Shown: positions 6,761 through 35,000 of the stretch, in pieces
Layout of the letters: every line of letters begins with the position of its first letter
Numbering within the stretch: position 1 is the stretch's first letter
Virus record (IMG/VR): IMGVR_UViG_3300032116_000256
Span: 1-55,148 of that record
Strand: one strand, 5' to 3'
Length of the DNA: 55,148 bases
Source: a virus
The notes under the pieces: model-generated
What the model saw: the letters and a program-made list of their open reading frames with translations, nothing else
What the model was told of the DNA's origin: nothing
Databases searched by the model: none
Position numbers and translations under genes: made by a program

Positions 6761-6764
6761 AAAT

Positions 6765-6841: not shown

Positions 6842-6843
6842 AT

Positions 6844-6920: not shown

Positions 6921-6925
6921 GAAAT

Positions 6926-10440: not shown

Positions 10441-11538
10441 TCAAAATGAGGGAACAATTGCTACCTGACTATAAGGAATTTCAGAACCATCTTCATTAGC
10501 AAGTTGGCTGTGATCGTAATTTAACTCTTCAACAGCAATTTGAAAAATTTGATCACTAGAAAGATCGTAGCCCTTCATGCGGCTCTGAATCTGCTTCACA
10601 GTAGGATATTCGCCAATTGAATGCTTGGTGTCGATGTAATTGCGAATCTTCAGCTTAATAAAGTCGTTTTCAACTTCATCGTCTGGAACTTCATCATCAG
10701 TTTCGGTATCGAAATTATAATCAGGACTATAGTCTGGATCATAATCATCACCAGCATTTTCATTGTAAATGGCATCAGGGATTTCCTTGCGCTCAGGAGT
10801 GATGTCGCTCAAGACACGATACTTTGAGACGCGCAGCTTCTGGAAATTACAATCAGTCGGCACGCTGACAGCATCAGCAGGGTCAACCTCAACCACAAGG
10901 AGACGCCCATCAGAACCAGCCCAATTATTTGCATAATCGTAGCTGCCAACGTGCAGACCAAAAGAGCAGTGATTTTCTTTGTTATCATCGACAGAGCGGC
11001 GAGCAACCTCAATCATTTCGCCAACACCATTATAAATGGAACCATTAGCGGCAACATTGCCGCGCACAACAACAGTATCCTTGTTGCCCTGCTTCGAATA
11101 AAAATCATTATTAACTCCCTTGTAGGCGAGGAACTTTCCATCAGCAGTGATGGGAAGACTCTTGTACGAAAGGAAAGTATAGAGTTCGTTGACTGAATTC
11201 GCAGAGGGATTCTGCATCAGACGGTCAATGAAGTTGAGCAGAGGCTCGGCATCCTTCGCCCCCTCCTTCAGCATGGCGAATAGCTTGTCCACCACAACGC
11301 CATGAACCTCAACGCCGCTGTGGAATAGCTTGCCATCATAAATGTCGATGGCTCCATGAGTCATGTTCTTGATCTTATTCTCAATCGTGATCAACTCAGG
11401 AATGAGATCGTACTGAGCGTCAAGGATAGCTTGGCGCAAGGAAGAGAAGTTCGGGTGCGAACTCTCAACGGTGTGCGGCTTGCCATCAACGAAAACGGTG
11501 ATGGAATTGTCGCGCATGATGTAGGCTGGCTTATTCAT
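10441..11538 (-). CDS. rIIB: rIIB-like protein
   Basis: 365 residues. Motifs shared with T4 rIIB relatives in large phages: LLNFIDRLMQNPSANSVNEL, TFLSYKSLPITADGKFLAYK, CSFGLHVGSYDYA and VEVDPADAVSVPTDCNFQKL. An acidic linker (residues about 265-300) and a helical C-terminal domain follow. T4 rIIB works with rIIA against phage exclusion (Rex) and affects lysis inhibition; the biochemical role is still unclear. It lies directly downstream of the rIIA-like gene in the same order as in T4. Confidence 0.85.
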   Translation of the reverse strand: MNKPAYIMRDNSITVFVDGKPHTVESSHPNFSSLRQAILDAQYDLIPELITIENKIKNMTHGAIDIYDGKLFHSGVEVHGVVVDKLFAMLKEGAKDAEPLLNFIDRLMQNPSANSVNELYTFLSYKSLPITADGKFLAYKGVNNDFYSKQGNKDTVVVRGNVAANGSIYNGVGEMIEVARRSVDDNKENHCSFGLHVGSYDYANNWAGSDGRLLVVEVDPADAVSVPTDCNFQKLRVSKYRVLSDITPERKEIPDAIYNENAGDDYDPDYSPDYNFDTETDDEVPDDEVENDFIKLKIRNYIDTKHSIGEYPTVKQIQSRMKGYDLSSDQIFQIAVEELNYDHSQLANEDGSEIPYSQVAIVPSF

Positions 11539-11560
11539 AACTAGGATATATTATTGTGGT

Positions 11561-13672
11561 TTAGGACTTACGATTATCAACTAAATTAATGTAGTCAAGG
11601 AGAAGTTTAGCGGCACTTTTGACACCGTAGAAGGAACCGTAACGCCCCTCAAACAGTGCGAACATCATCGGATAAGACTGGTTGATTGTCAAGACTTCTT
11701 GCTTGATTTTTTCAGAAATTTTCGAGTCGAGAGTACAAATGTTACCATCGACGCAGTGGCGAGGAAAATCTCCCAAAACGTGAAACTCTTTGATTTGCTC
11801 TGGAGTGAAGCCATAGTCACCCATGTCGTCGCTTTTATTCCAAGCGTCGAAATAAACTGAAATCGGGTGATTGTCAGGCAAAGCTTTCCTCAGATCACTG
11901 AGGTGAGAAATCATAGGGAAAGAGCTTGTGCGAAATGACTTCTCCTCTTTGGCATTAAAAATTGATTTAAATTGAGCAATTGCCGCATTGAATTTGGGCA
12001 TGAGGGCATCATGCAAATTAATAGCGTGAGCGGGGAGATCAGTCCTATCCAAGACGCCATAAACATTGTCATAATTGATGCCAAAATGCTTTGCAATCTT
12101 CCAGATAGTTCTGAAGTCGTGCATCTGAAAGTTTTTGTGATCACCGAAAACAATATCGTAATTGTTGCCGCCGTTATGCTTGATGTCAACATAATAGAAA
12201 GGATCGCTAGGCATTGGAACCTTTTCCTTGAAACTGTAGCTGTAATGGCTGTTGGAAAAGATTTTGCGTACATTGTTGAACTCTTTACTCTTGGATGAAA
12301 CAGGAGTGAGTTTAGAAGCGAGGTGAATATGATCGCAAGAGTTATGCTTGTAAAGCAGTTTGCTTTCGGCGTCAGCAAGGGAAACTACATAGATTATCCC
12401 ATCGATTCCCTTGGAACTCATTAATCCATTAACGCGATCATGAATGTTTTTAACGTTATCATTGATAACGATACGCCAATTGTTTCCACCAGCATAAAAC
12501 ATCTTGGCACTGATAGTCTTTTGGACGTTCTGGGCCTTCTTTGACAACCGCACAAGATTGCGAGTGCTGCGAGACTTTTTGTAAATAGCCAACGGGACAA
12601 TCGGATCACCGTTGATTTTAATTACATTTTTATTGGCATCAGTGAAGTTATAATTAGCGTCGCAGCAAAGCGACTCAAGGTTATTGGAGCCGCTCAAAAG
12701 ATACAGCTTTTTGAAAAACTCTGCTGAGTCAGAAATCGCATCGATTTCTTTTTGAACTTGCGCTTTGATTTCCGTCTCCAACTTAGAGATGGCGCGAGCA
12801 ATGAAGTTCTTGGTCTGCGCGTTGTATTCTAGATTCTCGCGAGAGTGGTGCAGCGCAACCGAGCCAACTGGAAAGAAAAAGACGAAGAAATTAGAAAGGT
12901 AAGAGTTGGAGAATGCCTTGTAAATATTTGACGAGGCAATTGGATGATTCGCAAGATTGTCAAGATTCAGTGGGTAAGAAATGCCACCCATCACAATGAT
13001 AGGATCGGAGCGTCTGTTCCTCTCCATTCCCCAATCAGCGTTCTTAATCACCCACTCTGGGACCAAACGCGAAAAACCTTTGCAGACAAACCTCTCGTCA
13101 GAGAAGCGAATGACATTGTTGATTTCGCATTCGAAGTTGGAAATGTCCTCGCTTTTGATTGCAACAGAAATCTCAACGCCACTCGGCTCAGAAGTGGAAG
13201 TGTCAGAGAGCTTGGTGAAACGAGTGTCGCCATGCTCGTCAACATAAACAGAGATGACGATCTCAGTTCCATTGTGACGAGAACTAACCGTAAATGAATC
13301 AGTATACGACAGCGGAGCGAAACGACCAATGCCGAAACCGCCGATTGAATCGTTGTCGCTGCGCTTGGTTGAGCGACCATACTTGGTGTAGAGACCAAAG
13401 AGGTCAGACTCGGAAAGACCCGCGCCAAAGTCACGCACAACGAAAGTGGGACTCAGGCGAGTGGGAGCAGTGATCTCAACGTGACGGGACGAACCCTTGT
13501 TCGCGTCAACCGCATTGGCGATAGTTTCGCGTGCAGTTGCCAAGATGACATTGGAATAATTATTCCGCAAAAGCGACGAGATGTAGCGCATCTCATTCGC
13601 ATCAATGGTCGCGATTTCAGATTTGAAATCGTGAGATTCAACAACGTTTCGCTGGATGGATTTGACAATCAT
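11561..13672 (-). CDS. rIIA: rIIA-like GHKL ATPase
   Basis: 703 residues from MIVKSIQRNVVESHDF. The N-terminal part is a GHKL ATP-binding domain: ETIANAVDA (N-box), then VVRDFGAGLS (DxGxG) and IGGFGIGRFAPLSYTDSF (GxGxxG lid). T4 rIIA belongs to the same class. The C-terminal 450 residues have no recognised domain. A TTG eight codons upstream is possible, but ATG is preferred because T4-type rIIA also begins close to the VVESH segment. Acts with rIIB, presumably at the membrane or in defence against exclusion. Confidence 0.85.
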   Translation of the reverse strand: MIVKSIQRNVVESHDFKSEIATIDANEMRYISSLLRNNYSNVILATARETIANAVDANKGSSRHVEITAPTRLSPTFVVRDFGAGLSESDLFGLYTKYGRSTKRSDNDSIGGFGIGRFAPLSYTDSFTVSSRHNGTEIVISVYVDEHGDTRFTKLSDTSTSEPSGVEISVAIKSEDISNFECEINNVIRFSDERFVCKGFSRLVPEWVIKNADWGMERNRRSDPIIVMGGISYPLNLDNLANHPIASSNIYKAFSNSYLSNFFVFFFPVGSVALHHSRENLEYNAQTKNFIARAISKLETEIKAQVQKEIDAISDSAEFFKKLYLLSGSNNLESLCCDANYNFTDANKNVIKINGDPIVPLAIYKKSRSTRNLVRLSKKAQNVQKTISAKMFYAGGNNWRIVINDNVKNIHDRVNGLMSSKGIDGIIYVVSLADAESKLLYKHNSCDHIHLASKLTPVSSKSKEFNNVRKIFSNSHYSYSFKEKVPMPSDPFYYVDIKHNGGNNYDIVFGDHKNFQMHDFRTIWKIAKHFGINYDNVYGVLDRTDLPAHAINLHDALMPKFNAAIAQFKSIFNAKEEKSFRTSSFPMISHLSDLRKALPDNHPISVYFDAWNKSDDMGDYGFTPEQIKEFHVLGDFPRHCVDGNICTLDSKISEKIKQEVLTINQSYPMMFALFEGRYGSFYGVKSAAKLLLDYINLVDNRKS

Positions 13673-13711
13673 GGGAGCAATTTGATTTACAGGCAAAGAA
13701 TGCCACAGGGA

Positions 13712-16029: not shown

Positions 16030-18087
16030 CTACTTTGAAGTAGCAACATATACCCCATCCCAATTTTTTGTCAAGCCTTTTTCGCGCAATTCGCCGATTC
16101 TTTCTATCATCATGTCGTAATATTTTTTCAGTTCTGGGTTATTCTTCTTGAGGCTTTCGGCTAAGGTAATCGCATTGTCCCAGTTTTGGGCGCGGTAATC
16201 ACAAATGAATCCATCGTGCATTCTGTAAATATGTTTTATTTTATCTTCATCGTGCTTGTTTTCAAGCACTGTGAATATTTTAACGCCTTCTTTCTTGCCC
16301 TTAACCGCAATCAAATCTAATTCAAGTGTCTGGTAATCATTTTTGATATGCTCTGCGGTTCTGGGGCCAACTATGATTCTAACACCGTAAGGCTTAGATT
16401 GCCCTTCTAATCTAGAGGCGAGATTAACATGATCACCCAAGCAAGTGTAATCGAAACGCTGAGTGCTACCCATATTGCCAACGACAACGCTCCCAGTATT
16501 GATTCCGAGTCCCATGCCGAATGGCGGGACACCTTCTTTTGAGATTTCTTCATTGAAAGAGTCGAGACGTTTAAGCATCTCTAATGCTGTCTTTACAGCA
16601 TTTTTCGCGTGATTAGCGTCATCAAGCGGCGCATTCCAGAACGCCATTTGAGCATCGCCAATGTACTTATCCAAAGTGCCATCGTTTTTCAATATCGATT
16701 CGGTCATTGCTGTCATGTAGCGATTCATAATCATTGTTAAGCCTTGTACATTTTTACCATAGTGTTCTGAGATTGTAGTAAAGCCACGAACATCTGTGAA
16801 CATGATAGAAAGCTCGCGTTCATCTCCACCTAAACGAAGCAAACCTGGGTTTTTTTGCAACTTCTCTACGAGTGCTGGCGCAAGATAAGTGCCGAATTGT
16901 TTTTTAATTAATTGTTTTTGTTTGAATTCGCTAATGAATCTCAAGAACGCGGATAACATGAACATCACTGATATTGCAATAATTATCCAACTGTAATCGA
17001 ATAATTGCCCCTTGGAAAACGATACGAATCCGAATTTAATTGGCGCAGCCACCAAAGCAATATAAAAAAGCCCAGTCAACCAATAAGGGCCACTAATGAG
17101 TATTAATATTACGGCTAATCCTGCTAATGATCCATAAAGCAATTCATATAAATTAAATTGGCTAGGTCTTTCTAACCTAGCCTCATCTGCCAACATCTGA
17201 GCGGCGAACAATGGAATTTCATATCCATATCTTATATTTACGGAGGTCGCAACAGTGTTTGATAACCCTTCAGCAGTCGGCGCAATCATAACAACTTTAT
17301 CTTTAACTTTGCTCCAGTTGTGGTCGGCAAAAGATAATGAACTGAATTCATATTTAAAATTAATCCAGACGCGCCCATGCTCATCTGTTTTTATTGTTTT
17401 AAATTGCGGAATTCTAACCGCATCTATTCCAGCTTGATTTATTCTTGCTTGATAGCTTGGGTCGCCAGCTAAAACACGAAGCATTTCAAGCGGTATAGTT
17501 GGATATATTTCTTTGTTTATTTGTACGATTAGCGGTAGCCTTCTAACTACACCGTCAACTTCTGGCGCAGTCAAAAGCATTCCAACGCCAGCCGCAGCTT
17601 CACCGAGTTGTTTCGTCGGACCAATCGCCGCATTATATTCAAATAACCATTCATTTATGCCCTCTCCAATTGTTGCGACGCCTCTTGGAACTGGTTGGCC
17701 TTTTCCTTTATTTGCCGCAGACTGACTCAAGATTACAGGGTAAGTTTTTAACACTTCTGTTAGTTCATCATCTCCATTGAATCGATCTTTCTCCGCAAAG
17801 ATCACTGGCAGCACAACTAACTGAGCTTGGTTATCGAATGCTTTTTTGATTGCTTTTGCAATAACTTGTCTTGGAAAGGGCCATTGACCTTCTTTCTCCA
17901 AAGTTTTTTCGTCTATTTCCACTACAATAATATTTTCACTTATTTGCTTTGGTTGAGTTCGTTGATAATAATCAATAGTCTTGAGTCTGGCGGTCTCAAT
18001 AAAAAATGGATCGTTTATGCGCAGCACAACAAGTCCAATCAGCACAGCGAATGAAAATAAAAAAGAATATAATTTATATTTGCTCAT
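16030..18087 (-). CDS. CHASE2-class III adenylate cyclase
   Basis: 685 residues. TM helix 5-23, extracytoplasmic CHASE2 sensor domain about 28-310, three TM helices about 315-385, then a class III cyclase domain 415-610. Seen in the catalytic part: FTDVRGFTT with first metal Asp432, LDKYIGDAQMAFW with Lys474 and second metal Asp478, DYTCLGDHVNLASRLE with Thr548, Asn555 and Arg559. Lys plus Thr/Asp at the base-recognition sites and intact metal and transition-state residues point to an active ATP cyclase (class IIIb type). The gene overlaps the FecR-domain gene by ATGA and ends the curli-like operon. CHASE2 cyclases beside FecR-type proteins are known in bacteria; one in a phage is unusual. 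It would sit in the inner membrane and raise cAMP in response to a periplasmic signal. Confidence 0.9.
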   Translation of the reverse strand: MSKYKLYSFLFSFAVLIGLVVLRINDPFFIETARLKTIDYYQRTQPKQISENIIVVEIDEKTLEKEGQWPFPRQVIAKAIKKAFDNQAQLVVLPVIFAEKDRFNGDDELTEVLKTYPVILSQSAANKGKGQPVPRGVATIGEGINEWLFEYNAAIGPTKQLGEAAAGVGMLLTAPEVDGVVRRLPLIVQINKEIYPTIPLEMLRVLAGDPSYQARINQAGIDAVRIPQFKTIKTDEHGRVWINFKYEFSSLSFADHNWSKVKDKVVMIAPTAEGLSNTVATSVNIRYGYEIPLFAAQMLADEARLERPSQFNLYELLYGSLAGLAVILILISGPYWLTGLFYIALVAAPIKFGFVSFSKGQLFDYSWIIIAISVMFMLSAFLRFISEFKQKQLIKKQFGTYLAPALVEKLQKNPGLLRLGGDERELSIMFTDVRGFTTISEHYGKNVQGLTMIMNRYMTAMTESILKNDGTLDKYIGDAQMAFWNAPLDDANHAKNAVKTALEMLKRLDSFNEEISKEGVPPFGMGLGINTGSVVVGNMGSTQRFDYTCLGDHVNLASRLEGQSKPYGVRIIVGPRTAEHIKNDYQTLELDLIAVKGKKEGVKIFTVLENKHDEDKIKHIYRMHDGFICDYRAQNWDNAITLAESLKKNNPELKKYYDMMIERIGELREKGLTKNWDGVYVATSK
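16047..16074 (-). promoter_or_regulatory. Sigma70-like promoter within end of cyclase gene
   Basis: Minus strand: TTGACA (16069-16074), 16-bp spacer, TATATG (16047-16052), 40 bases before ATG at 16007. Would start a separate transcript for 15756-16007 and the genes beyond. Confidence 0.5.
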
Positions 18088-19226
18088 TTTTGAATAATGT
18101 TTACTTTTGATTTCTCTCCAAAATTTAATACATAAGGTTCGCCGTTTACATTGACGCTCACGTTGTCGCCAAGTCTAGCGGTATAAACTATTACGCTTTT
18201 TTCTGTTCGTAATTCAAGTGTGGCAGTTTTGCCATCATTTGACTTAAATCCTTTGCTAACTGCTACATTAGGAGTTAATGTTGCTGTGGGCTGAACAATA
18301 GCTGGGGCAGTTTGATTTGATTTAGCTATTGCTTCCTCTGCCGCAGCTTGAACAACTTGGGGCTGGATTGCATTGATATCCAGTTTAGTTTCTGGAACTT
18401 GCACTGGCGTTTCAGTTGTTGCGGTTTGTGCAACTACTGCTTCTGCTGGAGCTTCACTAGGCTTATCTACTTGAGCAACTTCAGTTTTGCCCTCTTTCTT
18501 TTTATTTGGCTCGTCATCTTTCTTTCCGTCATCAGTTTTTTCTTTGCCTTCTTTCTTTGTAGTTTTGCTGCCTTGAGTAACTGATTTTGGGGACTCAAGC
18601 AAAATCATATTATTGATTTTTGATTCATCTTGGAAATTTAAAATAACAGGTTGAGTGGGGGCATTGAATCCAGAGCTAACAAATGTTGCTTGGTAAGGTT
18701 GGTTCATGACAACTTTGCCCCCAGCATTCTCCACTTCAATAGATCCTACAACTGGCTTTATGCCAGATGCTAGTGGGATGGACGGCAAAAGAACAATTAA
18801 ACTCTTGCCGTCCTCCGATACTGTCATTGAAAAGTCCGTGCCTCTTACAGAAACAACTGCTGTAGGAGTTTGAACTTTTATGTTTTCTCTGCTATTCTTT
18901 GCTATTAATCCTGACGCATATCTAACTGTGCCAGATGTTGCTTTCATGTTCAGTTTGCCTTTACCACTGGCAGGGTCATAGACAAACTCGTCTATCCTCA
19001 ACTTGGAAAACTCTGTAATTTGAACTTTGGTATTGTCTTCAAAGGTAATGCCAGCGCGACCTCGCAATGTTTCTATAACGTCATTCATTTCGACGCCAAC
19101 GCTGACTTTACCTTCAATCTTTTCGGTCTTTCTGGTTATTTGTGTCGGCCCAGTTATTTCAGTAAGTTGACCAGAAGAGGCGAAGCAAGATAAAGCCGCT
19201 AATAAAAATATAGCGGCTATTCTCAT
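18084..19226 (-). CDS. Secreted FecR-domain protein
   Basis: 380 residues. Sec signal peptide (MRIAAIFLLAALSCFASSG). Residues about 20-140 form a FecR domain: SVGVEMNDVIETLRGRAGI, ITFEDNTKVQITEFSKLRID, GKLNMKATSGTVRYASG, VQTPTAVVSVRGTDFS. A Lys/Glu/Asp-rich low-complexity linker about 220-270 follows, then an Ala/Val/Pro-rich stretch and a last strand domain (SVIVYTARLGDNVSVNVNGE). FecR domains sense or relay signals in the periplasm. Its gene overlaps both neighbours (TAATG with the curlin-like gene, ATGA with the cyclase), so it probably reports an envelope state to the CHASE2 cyclase. Confidence 0.8.
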   Translation of the reverse strand: MRIAAIFLLAALSCFASSGQLTEITGPTQITRKTEKIEGKVSVGVEMNDVIETLRGRAGITFEDNTKVQITEFSKLRIDEFVYDPASGKGKLNMKATSGTVRYASGLIAKNSRENIKVQTPTAVVSVRGTDFSMTVSEDGKSLIVLLPSIPLASGIKPVVGSIEVENAGGKVVMNQPYQATFVSSGFNAPTQPVILNFQDESKINNMILLESPKSVTQGSKTTKKEGKEKTDDGKKDDEPNKKKEGKTEVAQVDKPSEAPAEAVVAQTATTETPVQVPETKLDINAIQPQVVQAAAEEAIAKSNQTAPAIVQPTATLTPNVAVSKGFKSNDGKTATLELRTEKSVIVYTARLGDNVSVNVNGEPYVLNFGEKSKVNIIQK

Positions 19227-20032
19227 TAATTAGTCGGTGGGGCAATTGTTGCTGTTGTTTGAGCCGCTCCAGCGACACCGTTTTGGTTATTGCTATTCAA
19301 TGTCATCAATGGTGAAAAAGCTGTAGTGGTCTGAACAATGCGAACAGTATTGTTGCTACCAGTTAAATTATAATTAAAAAGCTGTTTCTCTAAGCCAGCT
19401 TGGTAAATAGTCAAATCATTAGATCCACCTGTGATTGTAACAGTTTGTTCATGACCATCTTTAGTCGCTGTACCACCAGCCACTAAACCAATTTGGGTAG
19501 ACTTAATTGTATTTGAACTGCCAGTTACTTCGTAATCAATATAATTATATTTACCATTCTCGATGCCGAATTTAAATACGTTTGAGTTGCCAGTTACATT
19601 GAACTTAAAGTCGCTGTAACTAACGGTGGCTTTTGACGTATCTGTATCAGATGTATGGTCAACGGTAACATCTTTATTGAGCAGGAATGAATTATTGTTT
19701 CCGTTAAAAAGCAAGTTCATATTGTTGTTTGATCCGCTCATAAAAATCTTTTGAGTATTCGCGTTGCCATTAAATACCGAAACTAATTTTAGATTGTTTG
19801 CATCGATAATTGAGAAATCCGTATTGTTGTTATTTCCCATTTGTCTCATTTCAAAAAGGATGTTATCTCCAGTGATATTACTGGGTGTTTGAGACGAACC
19901 TACTTTATTGAGAGATCCAACCTGTACAAAGGTTGTATTTCCCGAGGTTGTAATCTGATTAACGTAAAGCTGGTTCTGCCCGAAGGCGAGGGAAACCAAC
20001 GTTACGAATAACGCGATCAGTTTAATCTTCAT
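19226..20032 (-). CDS. Curlin-repeat (CsgA/CsgB-like) secreted protein
   Basis: 268 residues. Signal peptide MKIKLIALFVTLVSLAFG, then repeats of the form xxGxxNxxxxxQxG: MGNNNNTDFSI, MSGSNNNMNLLF, VTGNSNVFKFGI, VTGSSNTIKSTQIG, ITGGSNDLTIYQAG, LTGSNNTVRIVQT. Gly-Asn-rich, evenly spaced units with Gln or hydrophobic partners are the signature of curlin amyloid strands. More divergent than E. coli CsgA and longer. Coupled between CsgG-like and FecR genes. Likely exported through the phage CsgG-like pore. Confidence 0.75.
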   Translation of the reverse strand: MKIKLIALFVTLVSLAFGQNQLYVNQITTSGNTTFVQVGSLNKVGSSQTPSNITGDNILFEMRQMGNNNNTDFSIIDANNLKLVSVFNGNANTQKIFMSGSNNNMNLLFNGNNNSFLLNKDVTVDHTSDTDTSKATVSYSDFKFNVTGNSNVFKFGIENGKYNYIDYEVTGSSNTIKSTQIGLVAGGTATKDGHEQTVTITGGSNDLTIYQAGLEKQLFNYNLTGSNNTVRIVQTTTAFSPLMTLNSNNQNGVAGAAQTTATIAPPTN

Positions 20033-20825
20033 TGTTTTGGGGTTGAGGTTTTAGTTTCCAAAGTTTACACTCTTGGCCTTGTTTAATGATTTCTATTACT
20101 GCTTGTTCTATCGCACTTCTAACCGCAATAGTATTAGGTTCGTTTGCAGTGAAACCAAGCTCTGATTCTGCTGGTGTTACTCCGTGTTCGTAAAATTTAA
20201 ACAAGTTGCCCGAAGCTGCCACACTGGAAATTGTTTTTGTAACTGCAACACTCAGAATGATTTCGCCAGTTTGTACACTGACAAATCGTAATGAAACAGT
20301 TACAACATCTTTGCGATATTGGGTGCTGCCAGATATACCAAGAAGGCTGGCACCGGCACCACCAGTTAAGATATTAGTATCGTAGCCAATAATTCCTCCT
20401 TCTGCAATTATGCCCGCAAATAACATTGGCATCAGTTTTTCTGCGTCTTTGCCTTGAAATGACTCTCTGGTTTGATTTATAAGTTGACGCTCTCTTATAA
20501 CATTATCTAAATTAGAGCGTTCCAAAACTTGGAACCATTTGCCATCTCCTGCAATTCGCAAAGCATCTATGAGCCAACTTTCTGCGCCTTGAGTTACTGC
20601 TGACGAAAAGGAGGCGTAGGCGTCAACTGTTTTACGTTGTCCAGTTTTATCGGCAAACGCATAAACTGCGATTGTCATTCTGGGGTTGTCTGGCTCAGGT
20701 AAATTTTTAAGCTGCTCTTCAAGCGGAGAAGTCTGCAACTTGGGCAAAGTTATGATAGCTGGCTTCTCTGGCAGAGAGGCGCATCCAACTAGACTAAGCA
20801 ATAAAAGGCTTGCCAGCCATTTCAT
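20022..20825 (-). CDS. csgG: CsgG-like outer-membrane secretion lipoprotein
   Basis: 267 residues, close to E. coli CsgG in length. Lipoprotein signal MKWLASLLLLSLVG then C15. Family segments in order: MTIAVYAFADKTGQRK, AVTQGAESWLIDALRIAG, WFQVLERSNLDNVIRERQLI, GIIAEGGIIGYDTNILTGG, YRKDVVTVSLRFVSVQTGEII. CsgG forms the nonameric outer-membrane pore that exports curli subunits. CsgG-like genes without the rest of curli are known in some marine phages; here the gene sits in a fuller set. The C-terminal Lys/Gln tail is not typical. Confidence 0.88.
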   Translation of the reverse strand: MKWLASLLLLSLVGCASLPEKPAIITLPKLQTSPLEEQLKNLPEPDNPRMTIAVYAFADKTGQRKTVDAYASFSSAVTQGAESWLIDALRIAGDGKWFQVLERSNLDNVIRERQLINQTRESFQGKDAEKLMPMLFAGIIAEGGIIGYDTNILTGGAGASLLGISGSTQYRKDVVTVSLRFVSVQTGEIILSVAVTKTISSVAASGNLFKFYEHGVTPAESELGFTANEPNTIAVRSAIEQAVIEIIKQGQECKLWKLKPQPQNNED

Positions 20826-21277
20826 TAAGGAGTTGGAGCTAAGACGCCAACAGGAACTTGTATTTGAGTTGTGTTTCCTGTGGCGGGGTCAACAATAAAA
20901 AGAGTAACCATATCTCCGTTTTTCTGCCATGTAACAGTCGCTCCTCCTTGTAAATTAATTATCCCAAAATTTGCGCCTCCTGCGTTAAAAATTTGATCGG
21001 TAACTTGAGAAGCAAGCTGAGAGTAAATTCTTGCCTGTAAGTTGTTTATAAAATTATTTAATGGAGTGTTTTGAGATTGTATTTTTTCTTGTTCAAGCTC
21101 TGCTTTGGCAATATCTTTTATCGATTGTTTTCTGGTTCTAGCTAAATTTTCAATCGTAATAATGTGACCAGAAAAATTTACTCCATTAAACGCTGGAGAT
21201 TTAAAAGAATAAACCATGTCACTGCCAAATGCGTTGGTAGCGCAAACTAAAAAGAGTAATATTTTAGCGAGATTCAC
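20825..21277 (-). CDS. csgF: CsgF-like curli accessory protein
   Basis: 150 residues from a GTG start. Signal peptide MNLAKILLFLVCATNAFG, then MVYSFKSPAFNGVNFSG, which matches the CsgF start (FxFxNPxFGGN type), a helix (LNNFINNLQARIYSQLAS) and a C-terminal strand pair GDMVTLFIVDPATGNTTQIQVP as in CsgF (RKTGQTSTIQV). CsgF sits in the CsgG pore and helps nucleate curli at the surface. First gene of the five-gene operon; its stop overlaps the csgG start (TAATG). Confidence 0.78.
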   Translation of the reverse strand: MNLAKILLFLVCATNAFGSDMVYSFKSPAFNGVNFSGHIITIENLARTRKQSIKDIAKAELEQEKIQSQNTPLNNFINNLQARIYSQLASQVTDQIFNAGGANFGIINLQGGATVTWQKNGDMVTLFIVDPATGNTTQIQVPVGVLAPTP

Positions 21278-21293
21278 TAAAAGATATTACACT

Positions 21294-21944
21294 TTATTCT
21301 TTTTTAAATTGATAAAAGTAATCCCAATTGTCACCGGCAATCCATTTGCCTTCTCCTTCGCAGGTAAACTCTTGAGTAAAGACTTGCCAATCAGGTTTCT
21401 CTAACTTTTTAGAGATAAAAGCCCCACCATCTTTCCATACAACTCTGTTATTTGGTTGCAAAAACAATTGGTTTACAGGCTTGCCATCTTTATCTTTCAG
21501 CCCCCAAATAACATGACCACACTTATGACCGCCAGCCATTTCAGAGTATCCGTAAGAAGCGTCTGGATTGTCGCGCCAGTCAATAGTAAAAAGATATTTA
21601 CCCTCGACCCACTCATGGTTCTTTAGCTGAATATTAACTCTCGCATTTTTATGATACTCCCATCGGGTAACTGAAATGTCATAAGAGAAACAGTCCCACA
21701 ACTGCAACCAATCTAAGGGTAAATTAGAATGTTGTGGCTCGTTTACCAAAAAATGAATTGGAACACGATCATGACGCGAGCCATATTCCGTCATGACTTG
21801 AAACGTTAAACATCTTCTGGTTAAGCTGGTAACCCCAAAAACTTCACAAAGAACGTATTCTGTTTTTTTGTTCTCGTTGTTATAGAGGAAGTCGCTTTTT
21901 AAATAAGCTGGAAATACAGGGATGTTTGCATTAAGGTGAGGCAT
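21294..21944 (-). CDS. Conserved phage protein, unknown
   Basis: 216 residues, MPHLNANIPVFPAYLKSDFL, rich in aromatic residues (WLQLWDCFSYDISVTRWEY, HVIWGLKDKDGK, DNWDYFYQF). Similar proteins appear in T4-like and cyanophage genomes from memory. No function known. No signal peptide, so it is not part of the curli machinery despite lying beside it. Confidence 0.7.
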   Translation of the reverse strand: MPHLNANIPVFPAYLKSDFLYNNENKKTEYVLCEVFGVTSLTRRCLTFQVMTEYGSRHDRVPIHFLVNEPQHSNLPLDWLQLWDCFSYDISVTRWEYHKNARVNIQLKNHEWVEGKYLFTIDWRDNPDASYGYSEMAGGHKCGHVIWGLKDKDGKPVNQLFLQPNNRVVWKDGGAFISKKLEKPDWQVFTQEFTCEGEGKWIAGDNWDYFYQFKKE

Positions 21945-26202: not shown

Positions 26203-27735
26203 ATGTCAAGGGAATCTAATCATAAAGTAAATGCGGAGCTTTTTTCGCTTGAGCCTACGGCCTTGCTTGAATTCTTCGTGATTTATTATGATTATGTTAA
26301 TAGACCAGACGAAAAACTCTACATTCATGGTGGCACAAACGGCATAAATGGCTCAGTTTGGTGGCAAGGTCAGGAATATTCTCCATTTCCCATACAGAGT
26401 TCTGGTTTCGAATCAAAGGGGGATGGTTCTTTACCTAGACCAAAGTTAATGGTATCAAACCAAGACTTTTTCATGTCGAACTTGATTCGTCGATATGATA
26501 ACCTTATTGGTGCCAAGATAGTTAGAAAAAGAACTTTCGTCAAATTTTTAGATAACAAAAACTTTTCTGGGTCAGTTCATCCTTATGGATCTGCTGATCC
26601 AAGTGCAGGTTTGGAAGATCAGGTATTTTATATCTTAAGAAAATCTTCTGAGAACAGATCAATTGTGGAGTTTGAGTTAGCTTCGCCGTTAGAGCTTGAT
26701 AATGTCACTTTCCCTAAAAGAATTGTAATGGCGAGATATTGTTCATTTCATTACAGAGGTATAGGTTGCAGGTACTCTGGCCCACCAATAGCAGATGAAA
26801 ATGACGTTAAAATATCTTCTCCTACCGATGTTAGAAACGGCTTAATTAAACGTAGATATGATAAAGCTGGCCTTGTACTGCCAACAAATACAGCGACCTT
26901 TATATCTGGCATTAGTTCAGTAACAACAGCAACAGAATCTGTTGTGTCAAATATATCTGTAGATAACGAAGATAATTTCTATCTTGAGTTTCTTGGGTTT
27001 TTCAAAGTTGGTAAAGGACAAGCAGGAGAATACATATTTGGAGTTAATAATGACGAATCTGTAGAGTTCATTTTAAATAATAATATCATTGTAAAAGATT
27101 ATGGACCCGGCCCGCAAGACCCTGCGTCAAAGCCAAAATGGTCTGGCAGAGTAGAATATTTAAGCGAAGGGTATCATAGATTATTAATTAGATATGCGGA
27201 ATCAACTGGTGCTCAAGGACTTGCATTATATTACAAAACTCCAAATTCAGCTAATATGTCTCTCGCTGTTGATTCAGCTTCTTGGGTAGCATTGCCAGCG
27301 TCGAGACTTTATTACGACATAGATGAAGTTGGCAAGTTGGCAGCAAATCAAAACTTCAGTTCTAATATCTCTTTGAGCAGAACAGTGTCATTAAATCAAA
27401 GCTCTCTTGGAGATGGAGTAACAATTGATCGTGGAAGATGGGTAACTAAAAGTAATTATAAGGTAGGCGACTTTGTTTATGTCGAAAACCATAACGTAAA
27501 AATTCCTAAAGACAATATAAATGCAATTCCAAATTGGGAGCCGTTACAAAAGATTTATATATGCCTTAAAGATCATACCAGTTCGCCAACCAATGCGCCT
27601 TATTTAAATAAAACATTATGGGTGGCAGATCAATGCTCTAAAACTTTAAGTGGATGTAAATTAAGATTTGGGCGCGAAGCATCTTTACCTTTTGGTGGAT
27701 TCCCAGGAACAGAAGAATACTCAATAAACGGATAA
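26203..27735 (+). CDS. Tail tip protein L (lambda gpL-like) with PA14 insertion
   Basis: 510 residues. GSLPRPKLMVSNQD, GAKIVRKRTFVKFLD, DQVFYILRKSSENRSIVEFEL and LPKR-type C-terminal start match gpL. C180 and C189 (ARYCSFHYRGIGC) and C478 and C485 (DQCSKTLSGC) reproduce the four-cysteine pattern that holds an iron-sulfur cluster in lambda gpL. Between the two pairs lies an insertion of about 290 residues containing a PA14-like sugar-binding domain (YLEFLGFFKVGKG, DESVEFILNNN, GYHRLLIRYAE) and a WxxxxxYxVGDxVY carbohydrate-binding-like segment. Structural part of the tail tip. First gene of the plus-strand tail operon. Confidence 0.85.
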   Translation: MSRESNHKVNAELFSLEPTALLEFFVIYYDYVNRPDEKLYIHGGTNGINGSVWWQGQEYSPFPIQSSGFESKGDGSLPRPKLMVSNQDFFMSNLIRRYDNLIGAKIVRKRTFVKFLDNKNFSGSVHPYGSADPSAGLEDQVFYILRKSSENRSIVEFELASPLELDNVTFPKRIVMARYCSFHYRGIGCRYSGPPIADENDVKISSPTDVRNGLIKRRYDKAGLVLPTNTATFISGISSVTTATESVVSNISVDNEDNFYLEFLGFFKVGKGQAGEYIFGVNNDESVEFILNNNIIVKDYGPGPQDPASKPKWSGRVEYLSEGYHRLLIRYAESTGAQGLALYYKTPNSANMSLAVDSASWVALPASRLYYDIDEVGKLAANQNFSSNISLSRTVSLNQSSLGDGVTIDRGRWVTKSNYKVGDFVYVENHNVKIPKDNINAIPNWEPLQKIYICLKDHTSSPTNAPYLNKTLWVADQCSKTLSGCKLRFGREASLPFGGFPGTEEYSING

Positions 27736-27736
27736 T

Positions 27737-28099
27737 ATGAAATCAATTGTAGAACACGCATCAACATCTAATCTTGAAGTTTGTGGATTTGTATTTGTGG
27801 AAAATGGAGAATTAAAAACTGAACCTGCAAAGAACATCGCAGTTTATCAAAATGATTTGTTTGAGATACATCCATTAGAAATACTGCGCCATATGAAAAG
27901 TGGTAAATTAGCCGCTATTTACCACACTCATCCAGAGACAGGCGATAATGAATCAGAGTTTGACAAGTTTAATTGCGAGAATTCTTGTATTCCTTATGTC
28001 ATTTATAGCAAAAAAACAGAATCATTTAATCTTTTAGTGCCAAGAAAACCTCATGTAAATAAACAGTATATAGAATTATTAAAACAAAAATATGACTAA
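27737..28099 (+). CDS. Tail assembly JAMM peptidase (gpK-like, N-terminal domain)
   Basis: 120 residues. JAB/MPN domain: EVCGFVFVENG, IYHTHPETGDNESEFD with HxH and downstream acidic residues of a JAMM zinc site. Lambda gpK has this domain plus an NlpC/P60 peptidase; the second is missing here, so this is the short form. Takes part in tail tip assembly. Ends overlapping the start of the next gene (8 bases). Confidence 0.82.
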   Translation: MKSIVEHASTSNLEVCGFVFVENGELKTEPAKNIAVYQNDLFEIHPLEILRHMKSGKLAAIYHTHPETGDNESEFDKFNCENSCIPYVIYSKKTESFNLLVPRKPHVNKQYIELLKQKYD

Positions 28100-30581
28100 T
28101 GTTTATCTATATGGTGAGTTGCGAAACAAATTTGGATCAGAATTTAAATTTCACATAAATTCTGGCAAAGAAGTTTTTTTGGCGATTAATGCCAATAGAA
28201 AAGGATTTTTTGATGAAGTAAAAAAATTAGCCGCAAAAAATATTCATTATAGAATAGTTGTTGACGATCAAGTTGTAGAAAACCCAAATGAATTTTTAAT
28301 AACAAAAGCTCCTAAAGAAGTTCATATAATTCCTGCTGTATGGGGGGCTGGCGGCAATGGTGTTGTTCAAACGGTAGTAGGCGCTTTATTAATCGCCGCA
28401 TCATTTTTACCTATTCCTGGTGCTCAATTTTTAGCTTATATCGGAAGTGCATTACTGGTTCAAGGCGTAATGACGCTTCTTTTCCCTCCTCCAAAACCAG
28501 ACTTTAATCAAGAAGTTGCGGCAGGAGGCAAATCTTATCTCTTCGGACAAAAACCGCCAAACACATCACAAGGGCAAGCTGTGCCAGTTGGATATGGAAG
28601 ACTACTAGTAGAGTCTTCGCAAATTAGCTTTGGCATTAATCATTATCCTCTAAAGACTGACATTAAAACTTTGATGGCCCCAGTTGATAGACCAATTGAT
28701 GATTTTCTTGAACTTGAATATAAGAATGAAGATTCGCCAAGTATCACTCTTGACAGTTTTTATACTAATCAGGCAATGGGAATGGATGAGCCACTTTCAT
28801 TTGCTTCCGTAAATATATTAAATTCTTATATTAATATTGTTACAAATGCAACATCAAAAGTAACTACTGAGCCAGTAGAAGTAGTAGTCAAGAGAGATGG
28901 AGAAGTAGTATCTAATCCAAACTTAACTACTTTTGACGAAGACATTGAATATCAATGGTCAAACATGAATGCTGATGGAGGCAAGCCAAAGATAAGAATT
29001 GAGAATCCATATTCGTTTGATGCTGGATTAGTTTATAGATCTTATCAAGCTCCCGATTTCGCGCTCAACCCAGATTTGAATGTTAAAAATACTGACGCTT
29101 CATTCTTTGCGAGCTACAAACAAAATCAATATGTTAAATATGGTCCAATGCAATTTAAAAATCTTAAATTCGCTATATGGGATTCAACTTATACATATGT
29201 AAGCGGCGAACTTATTTCTTTTAATGATAAGTATTATCAATCGATAGCAGGCAATTCAAATCAATTACCAACTGGAGTTGGAGGTATAACAAATACAACA
29301 TATTGGCAGCAGGTAACATCTCCAGATACTGAAAGTTTATATTATGCTTTGTCTGATAATTCTAGATTTCTTCCTACGGATGTTGTTAAATGGCAAAGAA
29401 TAGCAACTTCTCCACAAACCAGCGGAGATATGAATGAAAGATTTGATCGTTTTGGCGCTCCCAAAAATCTTGATGATAAAATTTATCTTGGTGATTTTAA
29501 AAATATAAATGAAAATAGTGTCGGCGATAGTAATGCAAATGTTGATAACTATGGAATGGAATTTTTAGGTTATTTCCATGTGCCATTAGTGAGAGATAGA
29601 TTAATTAGCGTAATGGATGCTACAGCAGATGTAATGTATGAGATAGTAAAAGTTGGTACTTTTAATCAATGGGCTAGTATAGGATTAACCGGAGAAAATG
29701 GCGCGGCAATAGCTCCAGTACCGGGTATGACATTCAAAAAGAATTCTACGGTGGTAGTTGGAGATGGTCAAGTTTATCCAGTTGTTAAATATAGATTTAA
29801 ATTAGATTCGGATGACGCTTCTGATTTCTTTATTGATGGTTGGACTGGAAGTTCATACTACGGCAATCACGGAATGTATTCTGGATTTGCGAATCCCAAT
29901 AATCCAACTCAATCCGAGATTGCAGCTTTACCATCTCTGGTAACAGAAGCTTTATTAACAGTTGGCTATCATAGAATGTATGCAAGATTTCAGGATGATC
30001 TGGGCGGGGAAGGCATAACGGTTTATTATCAATATGATAGTAATTGGGATGGAACTTATTCAAATTATGCTCCAATACCATCATCTGCACTTTTCCATAA
30101 AAAATCTACAGATTTGATTATACCCAAGAACCAGAAGTTTATGTCCAAAACCCAACTTATTCCTGCAACAAGTATGGTCACGGGCAAAAAATATAAAATT
30201 GTTAAATTGGGAACTGTAAACTGGGGCAAGTTAGGAGCAAGTTCTCCTGTAGTTGGTTCAGTATTTATTAAGATAGCAACTCCTGGTGGTTATACAATTC
30301 CCGCAGATGGATTTGTTTACGAGGATACTTTCAGTTATTACGAAGGTAAATCCGCCAATTCAAATAGAATTATTAGATTTGTCGCTGACAGACCAACAGA
30401 TATAGATAAGGTTGACGAAGGTTTATCGTTCTATCAGGTAAAATATAAATGCAATGTCAAACTTGATAGAGTAACTTTAAACACATCGCCTGTAAAGGTT
30501 AATATTAAATTCCTCCCAACAGAAACTAAATTTAATGGAACTGTTGGCATAGCACTTCCACCGCAGGTAAACTCAATCTAA
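28092..30581 (+). CDS. gpI-like tail assembly protein with PA14-type extension
   Basis: 829 residues. The first 190 match lambda gpI: VYLYGELRNKFGSEFKF, VHIIPAVWGAGGNGVVQTVVGALLIAA, LAYIGSALLVQGVMTLL and GQAVPVGYGRLLVESSQI. gpI alone is about 220 residues; here a long extension carries a WxxxxTYxxGELISFNDKYYQS carbohydrate-module-like repeat, a PA14-like domain (MEFLGYFHVPL, GYHRMYARFQDDLGGEGITVYYQ) and YEIVKVG / YKIVKLGTVNWGKLG modules that recur in the gpJ gene. Probably both an assembly factor and a receptor-contact protein. Confidence 0.78.
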   Translation: MTNVYLYGELRNKFGSEFKFHINSGKEVFLAINANRKGFFDEVKKLAAKNIHYRIVVDDQVVENPNEFLITKAPKEVHIIPAVWGAGGNGVVQTVVGALLIAASFLPIPGAQFLAYIGSALLVQGVMTLLFPPPKPDFNQEVAAGGKSYLFGQKPPNTSQGQAVPVGYGRLLVESSQISFGINHYPLKTDIKTLMAPVDRPIDDFLELEYKNEDSPSITLDSFYTNQAMGMDEPLSFASVNILNSYINIVTNATSKVTTEPVEVVVKRDGEVVSNPNLTTFDEDIEYQWSNMNADGGKPKIRIENPYSFDAGLVYRSYQAPDFALNPDLNVKNTDASFFASYKQNQYVKYGPMQFKNLKFAIWDSTYTYVSGELISFNDKYYQSIAGNSNQLPTGVGGITNTTYWQQVTSPDTESLYYALSDNSRFLPTDVVKWQRIATSPQTSGDMNERFDRFGAPKNLDDKIYLGDFKNINENSVGDSNANVDNYGMEFLGYFHVPLVRDRLISVMDATADVMYEIVKVGTFNQWASIGLTGENGAAIAPVPGMTFKKNSTVVVGDGQVYPVVKYRFKLDSDDASDFFIDGWTGSSYYGNHGMYSGFANPNNPTQSEIAALPSLVTEALLTVGYHRMYARFQDDLGGEGITVYYQYDSNWDGTYSNYAPIPSSALFHKKSTDLIIPKNQKFMSKTQLIPATSMVTGKKYKIVKLGTVNWGKLGASSPVVGSVFIKIATPGGYTIPADGFVYEDTFSYYEGKSANSNRIIRFVADRPTDIDKVDEGLSFYQVKYKCNVKLDRVTLNTSPVKVNIKFLPTETKFNGTVGIALPPQVNSI

Positions 30582-30582
30582 A

Positions 30583-31515
30583 ATGAAAATATTGAATTCA
30601 TATAGATTCGGCAAAGGCGCAAAAGATGACGAATCACAAATTCCTGCTTTGATTCCGCCCAAAGACCAGAAGTTAAACAAATCTATATCTATTGCCGAAA
30701 GCATTGATATTATATGCGAAGGCCCGATCTATGGCTTGGTAGATCAATTCGGCAAAAAGGTTTATGGCTTGGATATGTTGAAAGGAATTTATTTAAATGG
30801 AAATGCGGTAATGAATTCAAAGGGTGAATATAACTATAGAAACATATTGATGGAGATTAATCTAGGTACAGAGAATCAAAAACCACTTCCAAGTTTTAAA
30901 TATGTAAGTATACCGAAAGCCGTTAATTTTAAATTATTAGGTCCAATTAAAAATTCATACGCTAGTGGTCAAAACCCAGATGTAAAAACAGGCCCAAATC
31001 CAGACCAAGTAAGAGACTTTGTTCGTTGGGGAAGAGCGCCAAAAGGCGACTGGCCTAGTGAAGACAAAGATCCATTTGTATTTATTCATAAGATAAGAAA
31101 CCGAGATGTTTCAAAAGTTAAAATAAGTCTTTTAGTAGAAAAATTAAATGACACTGTAGATATAGGCGAAAAAGGTAAAGCTGGAAGTATTGGCACGATT
31201 GCACAAACATCAATTACTTTAAGAATAAAGCATGGTTTAGAAAGTTCTAATATAGTAACTTGCCAAGATGTTACAATATGGGGAAGTGCAACAAGCCCAT
31301 TTGCTTATATGTTAGGAGAAAATGAAGAAACCTATTCTGCTCCTTGGGTGACCGATTTGGGAAGATCTTCTTCGGTTGGAGGTATGGGACCAATCGGAGG
31401 AACAACATCTTCAGCTTCTGCATCTGCTACAAGATCATTGCCATCATCAATTGGAAGCGATGCTGATTGGTTATCTAGACTGCCACAAGCTCCAACAATA
31501 GGTCAATACGTTTAA
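30583..31515 (+). CDS. gpJ-like tail tip protein, N-terminal part
   Basis: 310 residues starting MKILNSYRFGKGAKDD. SISIAESIDIICEGPIYGLV and GLDMLKGIYLNGNAVMNSKG are the N-terminal motifs of J-type tip proteins. The protein then runs into KVKISLLVEKLND and ends in a Ser/Ala-rich tail, without the central J domain, which is found in the gene at 32094. So J is divided into separate genes, as judged by domain order. Confidence 0.75.
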   Translation: MKILNSYRFGKGAKDDESQIPALIPPKDQKLNKSISIAESIDIICEGPIYGLVDQFGKKVYGLDMLKGIYLNGNAVMNSKGEYNYRNILMEINLGTENQKPLPSFKYVSIPKAVNFKLLGPIKNSYASGQNPDVKTGPNPDQVRDFVRWGRAPKGDWPSEDKDPFVFIHKIRNRDVSKVKISLLVEKLNDTVDIGEKGKAGSIGTIAQTSITLRIKHGLESSNIVTCQDVTIWGSATSPFAYMLGENEETYSAPWVTDLGRSSSVGGMGPIGGTTSSASASATRSLPSSIGSDADWLSRLPQAPTIGQYV

Positions 31516-31519
31516 TAAA

Positions 31520-32083
31520 ATGCCAATATTAAAAACACAAGAGGAGATATTAGCTTCTAAAATAAATCCAAGAAATAATACTTCGGCTCTTGGAGTCATT
31601 TATTATTTAAAAAATAGAAGCTTTGCTGATTATGTTCCGTCGTCGCCAGACAGAATAGTTTGGGGATTTAGTTTACCTGGTTATGGCGCTGGAACTGTTA
31701 AAACATTTACTGGCATATATAATACAAGTAACGTAGAAACATCTACATTTGCTAGAGGGGCAACAATAGTTTTAAAAGGGCAAGCTACATATTTATTAAG
31801 TAGCGCCAATTCTAATATAATTAAACCTGTTTTGGGGATAACTGCCCAAATAGATATAGATGGCACAACAACATCTTTTCCGAGCAAACAAGTTTTAGCG
31901 GCTGCTACAGAAATTCAAAGTGACGGTCAGTTTGCTTTTAATATACCGTCTTCAATTACTTCTTTAATGGCGGTTGGTAGACATTCTGTTTATTTAGACG
32001 GCTTTTCGCCAAAAGGAACTGTAAGATTAGCTGTCGCGAATTCAACTGATGACGTAAGATATTTTAATATAACGGCATCTTAA
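31520..32083 (+). CDS. Tail module protein, unknown
   Basis: 187 residues, Ser/Thr/Ile-rich beta protein (IVLKGQATYLLSSANSN, AQIDIDGTTTSFPSKQ, GRHSVYLDGFSPKGTVRLAV). No known family; location between two pieces of gpJ suggests a tail tip decoration or a receptor contact. Confidence 0.65.
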   Translation: MPILKTQEEILASKINPRNNTSALGVIYYLKNRSFADYVPSSPDRIVWGFSLPGYGAGTVKTFTGIYNTSNVETSTFARGATIVLKGQATYLLSSANSNIIKPVLGITAQIDIDGTTTSFPSKQVLAAATEIQSDGQFAFNIPSSITSLMAVGRHSVYLDGFSPKGTVRLAVANSTDDVRYFNITAS

Positions 32084-32093
32084 TTTATAATAA

Positions 32094-35000
32094 ATGATGA
32101 AAATTTTAAATCCAAATAGATTTGCCAAGGGAGCAGAAGACCCAGGTGAAGGCAGCAACTCTGATCCCACAGTTGATTTGACAAATCAGTCAACAAAGAT
32201 TGGCGAGATTGTATTGCCGCCATCTGTTGATGGGAAAGATAGATTTATATCGATTGAGAAATTAACCCCAGAAACAATATCTCCATTAGTGTCTAAAGAT
32301 GTTAGCGTTGAAGGTATAATTGAAGTTGTAGACAGATCATTTTCATATCCATTGACTGCTCACGTTGGATTAAAAATTGATTCAAGAACATTTTCGAATA
32401 TTCCAGAAAAGAAATTCGATGTTAAGATGAAGAAGGTAAAAGTACCTTCAAATTATTTTGGTATTGGCGGTAATGGATTAGACAGAAGATATGTATATTC
32501 AAATCCGAATTATGATGGCGATCCCAATAATTTAGATTTGGTATTTGTTATTGATCAGAACTTAAATTTAGCAAATAGAAGGCTGATTAAAAGAAATTTA
32601 AAAGAGATGTTGGGTAAACTTTGTTCTGGATATACTTATATCAGAGCATCGATATGGCAAACATCAGCGGATAAAAATACAGTAATAAATCAAAAAACTG
32701 GTGAAACTATAACTAATTTCACCCATTACGAAACATATGAATTTTTTGAGGTTGAGACGCCAGATTCATCTGGAAATAATAATACAAATCTTTATACAAA
32801 ATTAAATGCTGCTCTTGATGACGCCAACAAAATTAGCATAAATGAAAGTTTAGTAAACGATGCCGTTATTGCATCTTTCTTTTTAAGAAGAAGCCAATTT
32901 GGTCTTTCTGATGAGGCGGGAGTTGTTTCAGAAGAGAAGGTTTTAAAAACAATCTGGAACAATACTGTAAGAAAAGTTATATATATATCTGGCACAAATC
33001 CAGATCAAGTTATTTCTGGTTATAATACTATGCTTAATTTTGCCAGAGAAAACGCCATTCAGTTTTACTTTTTATTCTCTGACGCACAAGACTCTAACAC
33101 AAATACTTTAAGAGAATTCGCGATTGATACTGGTGGCGGTAAATTCAATATGATGCACAAATCGGATATTGAATTGCAGCAATTTTTCGACGAGCAGTTT
33201 TACGACAACAATAGAATCTATTATGGAGATTGGGATGGAACATTTAAAATTGCATGGACAGATAATCCAGCTTGGATTCTTTATGATATTCTCACTAACG
33301 CAAACTATGGTTTAGGAAATCATATTGATCAATCTTCCATAGATAAATGGACTCTTTATGATGTTGGTAGATACTGCGACGCAGTAGATGATAAAGGCAG
33401 ATTCCAAGGAGTGCCAGATGGCAAAGGCGGTCTTGAGCCAAGATATACATGTAATATCATTTTCTACAATAAGGACGAAGCTTATAAGGTAATAAAAGAC
33501 ATAAGCGCAATTTTTAAAGGCATAACTTATTGGAATACAGAAGGATTCTCATTCTTTGCCGATAGGCCAAAAGATCCTGTAATGTTTTTTGGAAATGCCG
33601 ATGTGCTTGATGGAGCTTTCAATTATAGTGAGACGGCTAAAAATACAAGACATACGAGTGTCGAAGTTGTATATAATGATAAATACGACGGCTATAAAAC
33701 AAAAATAGAGTTCATCGAAGATGTCGATGGCATTAAAAAGTTTGGACTCAATCCATTTAAAATTAATGCGGCTGGATGCACATCAAGATCAGAAGCTAGA
33801 AGAATAGGGCGATATGTTCTTTATTCTTCAATGTTTGAAGCTGATACCGTTGCGTTTACCGCTGGATTAAATGCGGCTTATCTGCAACCTGGTGATGTAT
33901 TTGGAGTTAGCGACGAAGTTAAAAATGTTGCGAGAACATTTGGAAGAGTATTGAATGTCGATGAAGTAGCAAATCAAATTAGAATTGATAGTGAGTTTGC
34001 TCAAGGATTATCTTCTGGTATTTTCTTGCACGTTCCATCTGGAAATTTTGCAGTTTCAGATTTAAATTCAATGACTGGAAGCAATGGAGGCTTCACTGGC
34101 AACATAGAAACTATTCGCGCAAGAAGACAATCTCAGGTAAGAAAATTTAATATTCATACTGTAGAAGAAGAAGTCGGCAATTCATATGGAGCATTATTAA
34201 CTGTAACAGGAGATTTTCTTTTAAAGTCAGGAGTCATTGACGTTTACGTTGAAGAGGGAAGAGTTTCAGGTTCCAATCAAATTACTGGAGAGAGCGAATT
34301 GACTGGCTTGGTATATACATTCCCACAAAATACAGTTATAGAGGGAAATCCTCGTTGGGATGTTGCAAAATTCTCAAGCTTGTCTGGCGTTTTAAATGAT
34401 CTTAAAATTGAATTTGATGTTTCTGGAACCGCTGGTACTGGTCAATTGATAGCAAACGAAACTAATTGGGAGTGTTTATTGTCTTATGGTATATCTACTC
34501 CATCTACAATTTCGGTTAATAATGTTCAAGTTCAGACCGTAACTACAAATAAAATTAAGGTATCATTTTTTAATACTCTTGGAGTTCACCAGCAATCTAC
34601 AGAAGTAGACGACCTCAATGATATATGGTCTGGTTCTGCATTTAGTGCAGCCAATGCAGATGGCGTAATAACAGTGGTGTCTAATGGAGCGAAAATCTCT
34701 AATAGTTTTGTACCAAATTCTAACTGGAATAATTATGCGGCAACGGAGGTATTTAAAATAGGCAAAGATGTAAGTTCAACAACTACATCTTTTGGCTACA
34801 CTGCCGCATTTATAAAAGGTGGAAGCAGAATAATTGAAAGAGCTTCCAAGGGAATGAACGATTACGGTAGATTAAAATTTAGATATAGAGACTTACTAGC
34901 TTTAAGTAAATTAAGACCTTATTATACTTTCCTTCAGGCTGACATAGGAAACAGAAGGGAATCGTTTTACGAAAACTGGACAAGCAATAGATATTACGAA

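Follow-up and report, generated by a model that had tools for sequence, protein, structure and literature searches.

The window analysed here is a stretch of 55,148 bases, the IMG/VR virus record IMGVR_UViG_3300032116_000256. On its minus strand lie five open reading frames (ORFs), neighbours overlapping by 1, 11, 1 and 4 bases, that encode a CsgF-like protein, a CsgG-like pore lipoprotein, a curlin-repeat protein, a FecR-domain protein and a membrane CHASE2 cyclase (Table 1). This arrangement had been put forward in an initial annotation made from the sequence alone, and it is borne out by the ORFs, by Pfam and by repeat statistics. The same annotation had assigned export signals to the first four proteins and a membrane location to the cyclase. 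Signal-type N termini, the CsgG lipobox and the transmembrane segments of the cyclase agree with it, as judged by hydropathy and inspection rather than by SignalP. Phage genes border the operon on either side (lambda-type tail genes, rIIA/rIIB, NrdAB and the DNA polymerase III alpha subunit), which upholds the view that the operon is phage-encoded. Hidden Markov model (HMM) searches returned both CsgF and CsgG. PHROGs families match four of the five proteins, each labelled 'unknown function'. We propose that the five genes probably make up a type VIII (curli) secretion module, joined to a sensor arm that links the envelope to cyclic AMP (cAMP) and borne by a phage, a siphovirus whose host has an outer membrane. 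We hold this reading with moderate confidence.

Table 1. Positions of the operon genes, neighbouring genes and related features (window coordinates unless a locus is named)
Feature	Position	Strand	Properties
csgF-like	20825..21277	-	150 aa, GTG start, signal-type N terminus; Pfam CsgF 9.7e-19
csgG-like outer-membrane pore lipoprotein	20022..20825	-	267 aa, lipobox LVGC (Cys15); Pfam CsgG 1.9e-51
curlin-repeat (CsgA/B-type) protein	19226..20032	-	268 aa; GxxN/QxGxxN repeat pattern
FecR-domain protein with signal peptide	18084..19226	-	380 aa; Pfam FecR 2.3e-10
membrane CHASE2 class III nucleotide cyclase	16030..18087	-	685 aa; Pfam CHASE2 2.3e-39, Guanylate_cyc 9.6e-22
gene upstream of csgF, 16-bp gap	21294..21944	-	phrog_3704 3.1e-50, aquatic-phage family
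tail-tip genes gpL, gpK, gpI?, gpJ (lineage-defining)	26203..37952	+	phrog_18, 32, 1727, 31
rIIB and rIIA, far side of operon	10441..13696	-	phrog_609 1.8e-63, phrog_612 6.1e-87
cNMP-binding 218-aa proteins of relatives	L304:1266-1922 (G019 ~23.3 kb); L305:1098-1754 (G015 ~97.2 kb)		

The CsgG-like protein has the properties of a type VIII pore lipoprotein. In addition to its Pfam match and lipobox cysteine, it aligns over nearly its whole length (residues 9-264) to the Escherichia coli CsgG structures 3x2r, 4q79 and 6l7a (E 5e-44), and Gly14-Cys15 is invariant in nine viral CsgG proteins. E. coli CsgF is known to bind CsgG via the region just after its signal peptide. In the window, the mature N terminus of CsgF carries the motif FKSPAFNG (21182-21205) just past the signal peptide, and FxxPxFxG recurs in 37 of 56 viral CsgF proteins; CsgF is thus predicted to have a CsgG-binding N-terminal peptide. 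A phmmer comparison of CsgF with PDB sequences gave no meaningful match. The initial annotation had called CsgF a pore plug: CsgF is indeed present, but the label is imprecise, since CsgF forms a second constriction on CsgG and the plug of E. coli is CsgE.

The third protein begins with a hydrophobic signal-type N terminus, as do the FecR and CsgF proteins, and consists of about 9-10 degenerate repeats on the GxxN/QxGxxN pattern followed by a disordered C-terminal tail. GxxN occurs 11 times against 3.5 expected in shuffled sequences, a count that none of 5000 shuffles reached. When 30 relatives are aligned, the invariant columns consist almost entirely of the Q, G and N residues of QxGxxN or GxxN, and one relative (L065) passes Pfam Curlin_rpt (5.6e-7). 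An AlphaFold2 model of the window protein shows short strands and turns in regular stacking, with a predicted local distance difference test (pLDDT) score of 78 and a predicted template modelling score of 0.74.

The two remaining proteins would form the sensor arm. The FecR-domain protein is made up of the FecR domain (residues 50-144), a Lys/Glu-rich linker that is modelled at low confidence (pLDDT about 30) and a small C-terminal beta domain. Besides the hydrophobic N-terminal signal, it has just one weakly hydrophobic segment (residues 142-161) and no clear transmembrane helix. An anti-sigma ferric citrate regulator of the FecI/FecR type was considered and rejected, since the protein starts with a signal peptide and does not have the layout of a cytoplasmic domain plus transmembrane segment. 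No FecI sigma factor occurs among the neighbouring genes checked; for these reasons the term 'iron regulator' does not fit this protein. Foldseek gave as top match 5ix9, a 'cell surface anchoring domain' (E 9e-3; TM-score 0.77 by target over 70 columns), which is a lead only, the model being poor. The cyclase comprises an N-terminal transmembrane segment, the CHASE2 domain (17152-18039), a transmembrane cluster at residues 311-388 and the cyclase domain (16273-16815). The catalytic residues D432, K474, D478, T548, N555 and R559 (two metal-binding Asp, a base-selecting Lys and Thr, and the transition-state Asn and Arg) are all present, and four of the six positions are invariant in 47 viral homologues. 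CyaB/CyaC-type adenylate cyclases are among the nearest structures, and the Lys/Thr pair points to cAMP rather than cyclic GMP as the likely product.

The pairing of a FecR-domain protein with a CHASE2 cyclase has an independent precedent in Campylobacterota, in which CHASE2 cyclase genes and a gene for a FecR-domain protein of the outer membrane occur in clusters (PMC9239204). Those clusters resemble the window in this pair and differ from it in having phosphodiesterase and TPR partners, and curli genes are not mentioned there. CHASE2-type cyclases were found in 120 of 385 sampled Alphaproteobacteria genomes, with FecR adjoining the cyclase in three of 29 alphaproteobacterial loci.

The five genes recur widely as a set. 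When IMG/VR was scanned with a single protein, 299 stretches were found to contain a CsgG relative, and 80 loci were sampled from these. All five genes are uninterrupted and in the same order in 49 of these; a second curlin gene is present in three, the cyclase is inverted in eight, and the set is incomplete in 20, most of them visibly cut by the contig end. An inverted cyclase gene (L066-L069, L071, L080, L082 and L083, some on contigs of 138-364 kb) faces the exporter genes. On one 297-kb contig (L046:12791-15667) the cyclase is followed by a second, partial cyclase fragment. The ratio of nonsynonymous to synonymous substitutions (dN/dS) is 0.03-0.09 for all five genes when the window is compared with its close relatives L007, L008 and L009, wherever dS is unsaturated, and this indicates that the genes form a real set kept by selection rather than a chance arrangement.

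The virus that carries this set belongs to a distinct lineage. Its lambda-type tail-tip genes (gpL, gpK and gpJ) place the window outside the T4-like phages in which curli genes were first noticed. A T4-like identity was considered and rejected on the same grounds, together with the lack of any T4 structural match in the lineage contigs. We infer a siphovirus from this gene content; the morphology is predicted rather than read directly, because the window covers gpL/gpK/gpJ while the head and tail-tube genes lie beyond it. A scan with gpL recovered about 22 loci of the lineage (53-100% identity), and in all 12 lineage contigs long enough to reach the locus the curli genes are about 5 kb from gpL. 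The tail-tip set likewise adjoins the curli genes in L006-L031 and in L246/L249/L253.

Among 34 curli-locus records, five have the T4 capsid gene gp23, including contigs of 286-364 kb, and T4 replication genes lie beside the operon in many other curli contigs. In a CsgG tree of 93 rows, ordinary bacterial CsgG is separated from a single clade (100/99) that holds every viral contig but the unverified 1.5-kb L004. A CsgG-bearing Salmonella phage S.Kent record (H7) was disregarded as a 1.5-kb unverified contig. The siphovirus CsgG proteins form a single clade (97/95). It branches within a group of contigs of which those identified are T4-like, a position that suggests transfer between phage types, and the cyclase tree recovers the same siphovirus clade. 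These trees are consistent with a single event in which the siphovirus lineage received the whole module from a T4-like phage. A transfer from myo- to podoviruses has been reported (PMC9599517), which a siphovirus transfer would parallel. In this lineage the module is conserved under strong purifying selection, and it seems to have passed as a single block from one type of phage to another.

Bacterial loci give a further view of its history. In 70 of 80 bacterial CsgG loci no FecR or cyclase was found near CsgG; these loci were examined over up to 8 kb with HMMs derived from the viral proteins, which may overlook distant versions. Of the ten remaining loci, nine are contigs within the viral clade, whole or cut by the contig end. 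Four of the nine (L086, L096, L123 and L132) carry T4-type phage genes beside the curli module and are probably phage contigs binned with bacteria; they are contigs of metagenome-assembled genomes (MAGs) filed under Flavobacteriaceae, Sphingobacteriales and Synechococcus. The viral CsgG clade thus includes MAG contigs, some with T4 genes, and it also includes Hyphomonas sp. TMED17 (L090). There, all five genes stand in the order of the window on a 705-kb contig (L090:7471-13494), between TonB-receptor and metabolic genes. This set differs from the window in its chromosomal location and its 504-aa curlin protein, and it shows that a bacterial version of the module exists. The L090 FecR was found in one of 105 genomes of its family. 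This set may be the source of the viral module or a return transfer. Together with the FecR-CHASE2 precedent, it suggests that the unit combines an exporter with an envelope sensor, and that the 'iron regulator' label misleads for FecR.

The initial annotation had regarded such a gene set as undescribed, and this does not stand. The order CsgF-CsgG-CsgA/B-FecR-adenylate cyclase was described in 2022 for SAR11 myo- and podophages (PMC9599517), following a report of CsgF and CsgG in pelagimyophages (PMC7029224), and it is annotated in GenBank for the cultured Pelagibacter phage HTVC008M and Methylophilales phage Melnitz. The latter two resemble the window and differ in carrying a second curlin or hypothetical gene between FecR and the cyclase. 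The type VIII secretion system (T8SS) modules of SAR11 phages (HTVC023P-type podophages and pelagimyophages) reside in T4-like or podovirus genomes whose hosts are marine; a second curlin gene is often present, as is a histidine kinase in the podophages. The window, in contrast, has lambda-type tail genes, a freshwater lineage member and one curlin gene, and no kinase was seen among the genes checked next to its operon. Its CsgG is 48-50% identical to marine-phage CsgG. The window shares with the phage T8SS of PMC9599517 both the gene order in a phage genome and a place in the common viral CsgG clade. In open-access papers we found no siphovirus case of the module. The phage curli module is therefore not confined to the T4-like phages and podoviruses of marine SAR11 and OM43 bacteria; it also occurs in a separate lineage with lambda-type tail genes. 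The curli operon was absent from the freshwater SAR11 myophages examined in 2020 (PMC7029224). Within the window lineage, a Lake Erken metagenome (PMC7527133) is the source of one contig (IMG 3300020160), and freshwater origin is confirmed for that contig alone. With respect to the curli system of E. coli (csgBAC-csgDEFG), the window has in common the CsgG pore lipoprotein, CsgF and a probable curlin-repeat subunit, whereas CsgD, CsgC and CsgE are not seen in the operon, a dedicated test having been made for CsgE.

Taking the domains, repeats and catalytic residues together with the conserved order, the purifying selection and the matching CsgG and cyclase trees, we propose the following mechanism. 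If expressed during infection, the CsgG lipoprotein would form a pore in the outer membrane, and CsgF would bind this pore through its N-terminal peptide. The curlin-repeat protein might then exit via the pore and polymerise into surface fibres. In the periplasm, the FecR-domain protein could sense the state of the envelope, the pore or the cargo and signal it, possibly by direct contact, to the cyclase of the inner membrane through the CHASE2 domain. The cyclase would in turn make cAMP, to which host cAMP receptors might respond. Among the possible purposes of the module, which include blocking other phages and holding cells together, we consider a surface coat on the infected cell the most likely. 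Phage blocking and cell cohesion, along with virion release, had been raised in the initial annotation and have in fact been proposed before, as sibling capture (PMC7029224), as superinfection exclusion and sibling capture (PMC9599517) and as a lysis pore (PMC9004378). A defined set of parts makes these role proposals of 2020-2022 testable.

Several observations count against this mechanism. The window's curlin-like protein has no significant Pfam match and misses Curlin_rpt, its mature form starts in the first repeat with no obvious N22 secretion segment of the CsgA type, and Foldseek of its model against the PDB gave weak beta-helix proteins only, none significant. The constriction residues Y51 and N55 of E. 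coli CsgG align to V and S here, while F56 is retained. CsgE (PF10627) was not found in 19 records (the window, 15 further viral records, Hyphomonas, HTVC008M and Melnitz), which are mostly fragments, and an E. coli control was positive. This gap is not decisive, since the same absence is reported for alphaproteobacterial and phage modules (PMC9599517). Sigma-70-like promoter matches around the operon occur only at chance number, no protein binding cyclic nucleotide monophosphates (cNMP) was found in the window lineage, and Melnitz-infected cells showed no clumping (PMC9004378).

A different emphasis would make signalling the main function, with cAMP from the FecR-CHASE2 cyclase reprogramming the host and the curli part serving as signal source or anchor. 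Bacterial FecR genes near CHASE2 cyclases without curli (PMC9239204, and the three alphaproteobacterial loci above) are consistent with this idea. So are two relatives, G015 (297 kb) and G019: some 14-15 kb downstream of the operon, each has a gene for a 218-aa protein that combines a cNMP-binding domain with a hydrophobic stretch. In a few loci, however, the cyclase is inverted while CsgF, CsgG, curlin and FecR remain together, which marks the cyclase as the loosest member rather than the core, and we regard a signalling-first function as unlikely. G015 and G019 are jumbo-type or T4-like curli phages, and the 218-aa protein is a possible phage-encoded cAMP receptor. We tentatively raise the possibility, itself doubtful, of a portable phage circuit in which the FecR-CHASE2 cyclase monitors the pore and its amyloid cargo, and in some jumbo-type relatives the cNMP-binding protein, which may sit in a membrane, reads the cAMP. 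If this were true, the virus would supply both the maker and the receptor of a second messenger.

Two further proposals concern the pore itself. According to the first, advanced for Melnitz (PMC9004378), the CsgG or CsgG-CsgF pore would act as a pinholin-like lysis trigger and the remaining genes would be accessory. The altered constriction loop of viral CsgG could be taken in its favour. Holins, however, act on the inner membrane, and CsgG is an outer-membrane protein. Purifying selection is moreover equally strong on the curlin, FecR and cyclase genes, their order is conserved, and an Rfam search of the window for a riboswitch like that of the Melnitz model gave tRNAs only; a lysis device seems improbable. 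According to the second (PMC7029224 and PMC9599517), an ungated CsgG channel would admit larger nutrients or cofactors to the infected cell, with which the lack of a detected CsgE gate agrees. Uptake would need no CsgF, repeat protein or sensor, yet all of these are conserved, and we give this idea as little credence as the lysis trigger. Mis-assembly or a bacterial island, to which the bacterial homologues and the full Hyphomonas set might point, can be set aside as having a negligible chance, because phage genes stand on both sides, the same junctions and order recur in many independent contigs of the lineage and beyond, and the module is present in the cultured phages Melnitz and HTVC008M.

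The phrog_3704 gene upstream of csgF likely shares the operon's transcription unit; it adjoins the operon in most lineage contigs (L005-L031), and its family is common in cyanophages, HTVC008M and Flavobacterium phages. Shine-Dalgarno (SD)-like motifs precede 16% of the window's genes, compared with 48% in HTVC008M and Melnitz, and the operon genes have none. The share is 12-18% in the window, L244-L251, L256-L257 and L261-L262. This low share suggests hosts with SD-poor translation and names no host. The cyanophage markers psbA and psbD were absent from 27 viral records. NrdB is nearest to cyanophages at 46%, too distant for naming a host. The window also encodes a ClpA-like protein and seven tRNAs, and for a stretch of four of them (6684-7000) the best genomic match is in a Cyanobacteriota genome (80% over 114 bp), with other phyla close, which makes it no more than a hint of the host. 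A UvdE-type UV endonuclease (14284-15189) is retained close to the operon across the lineage.

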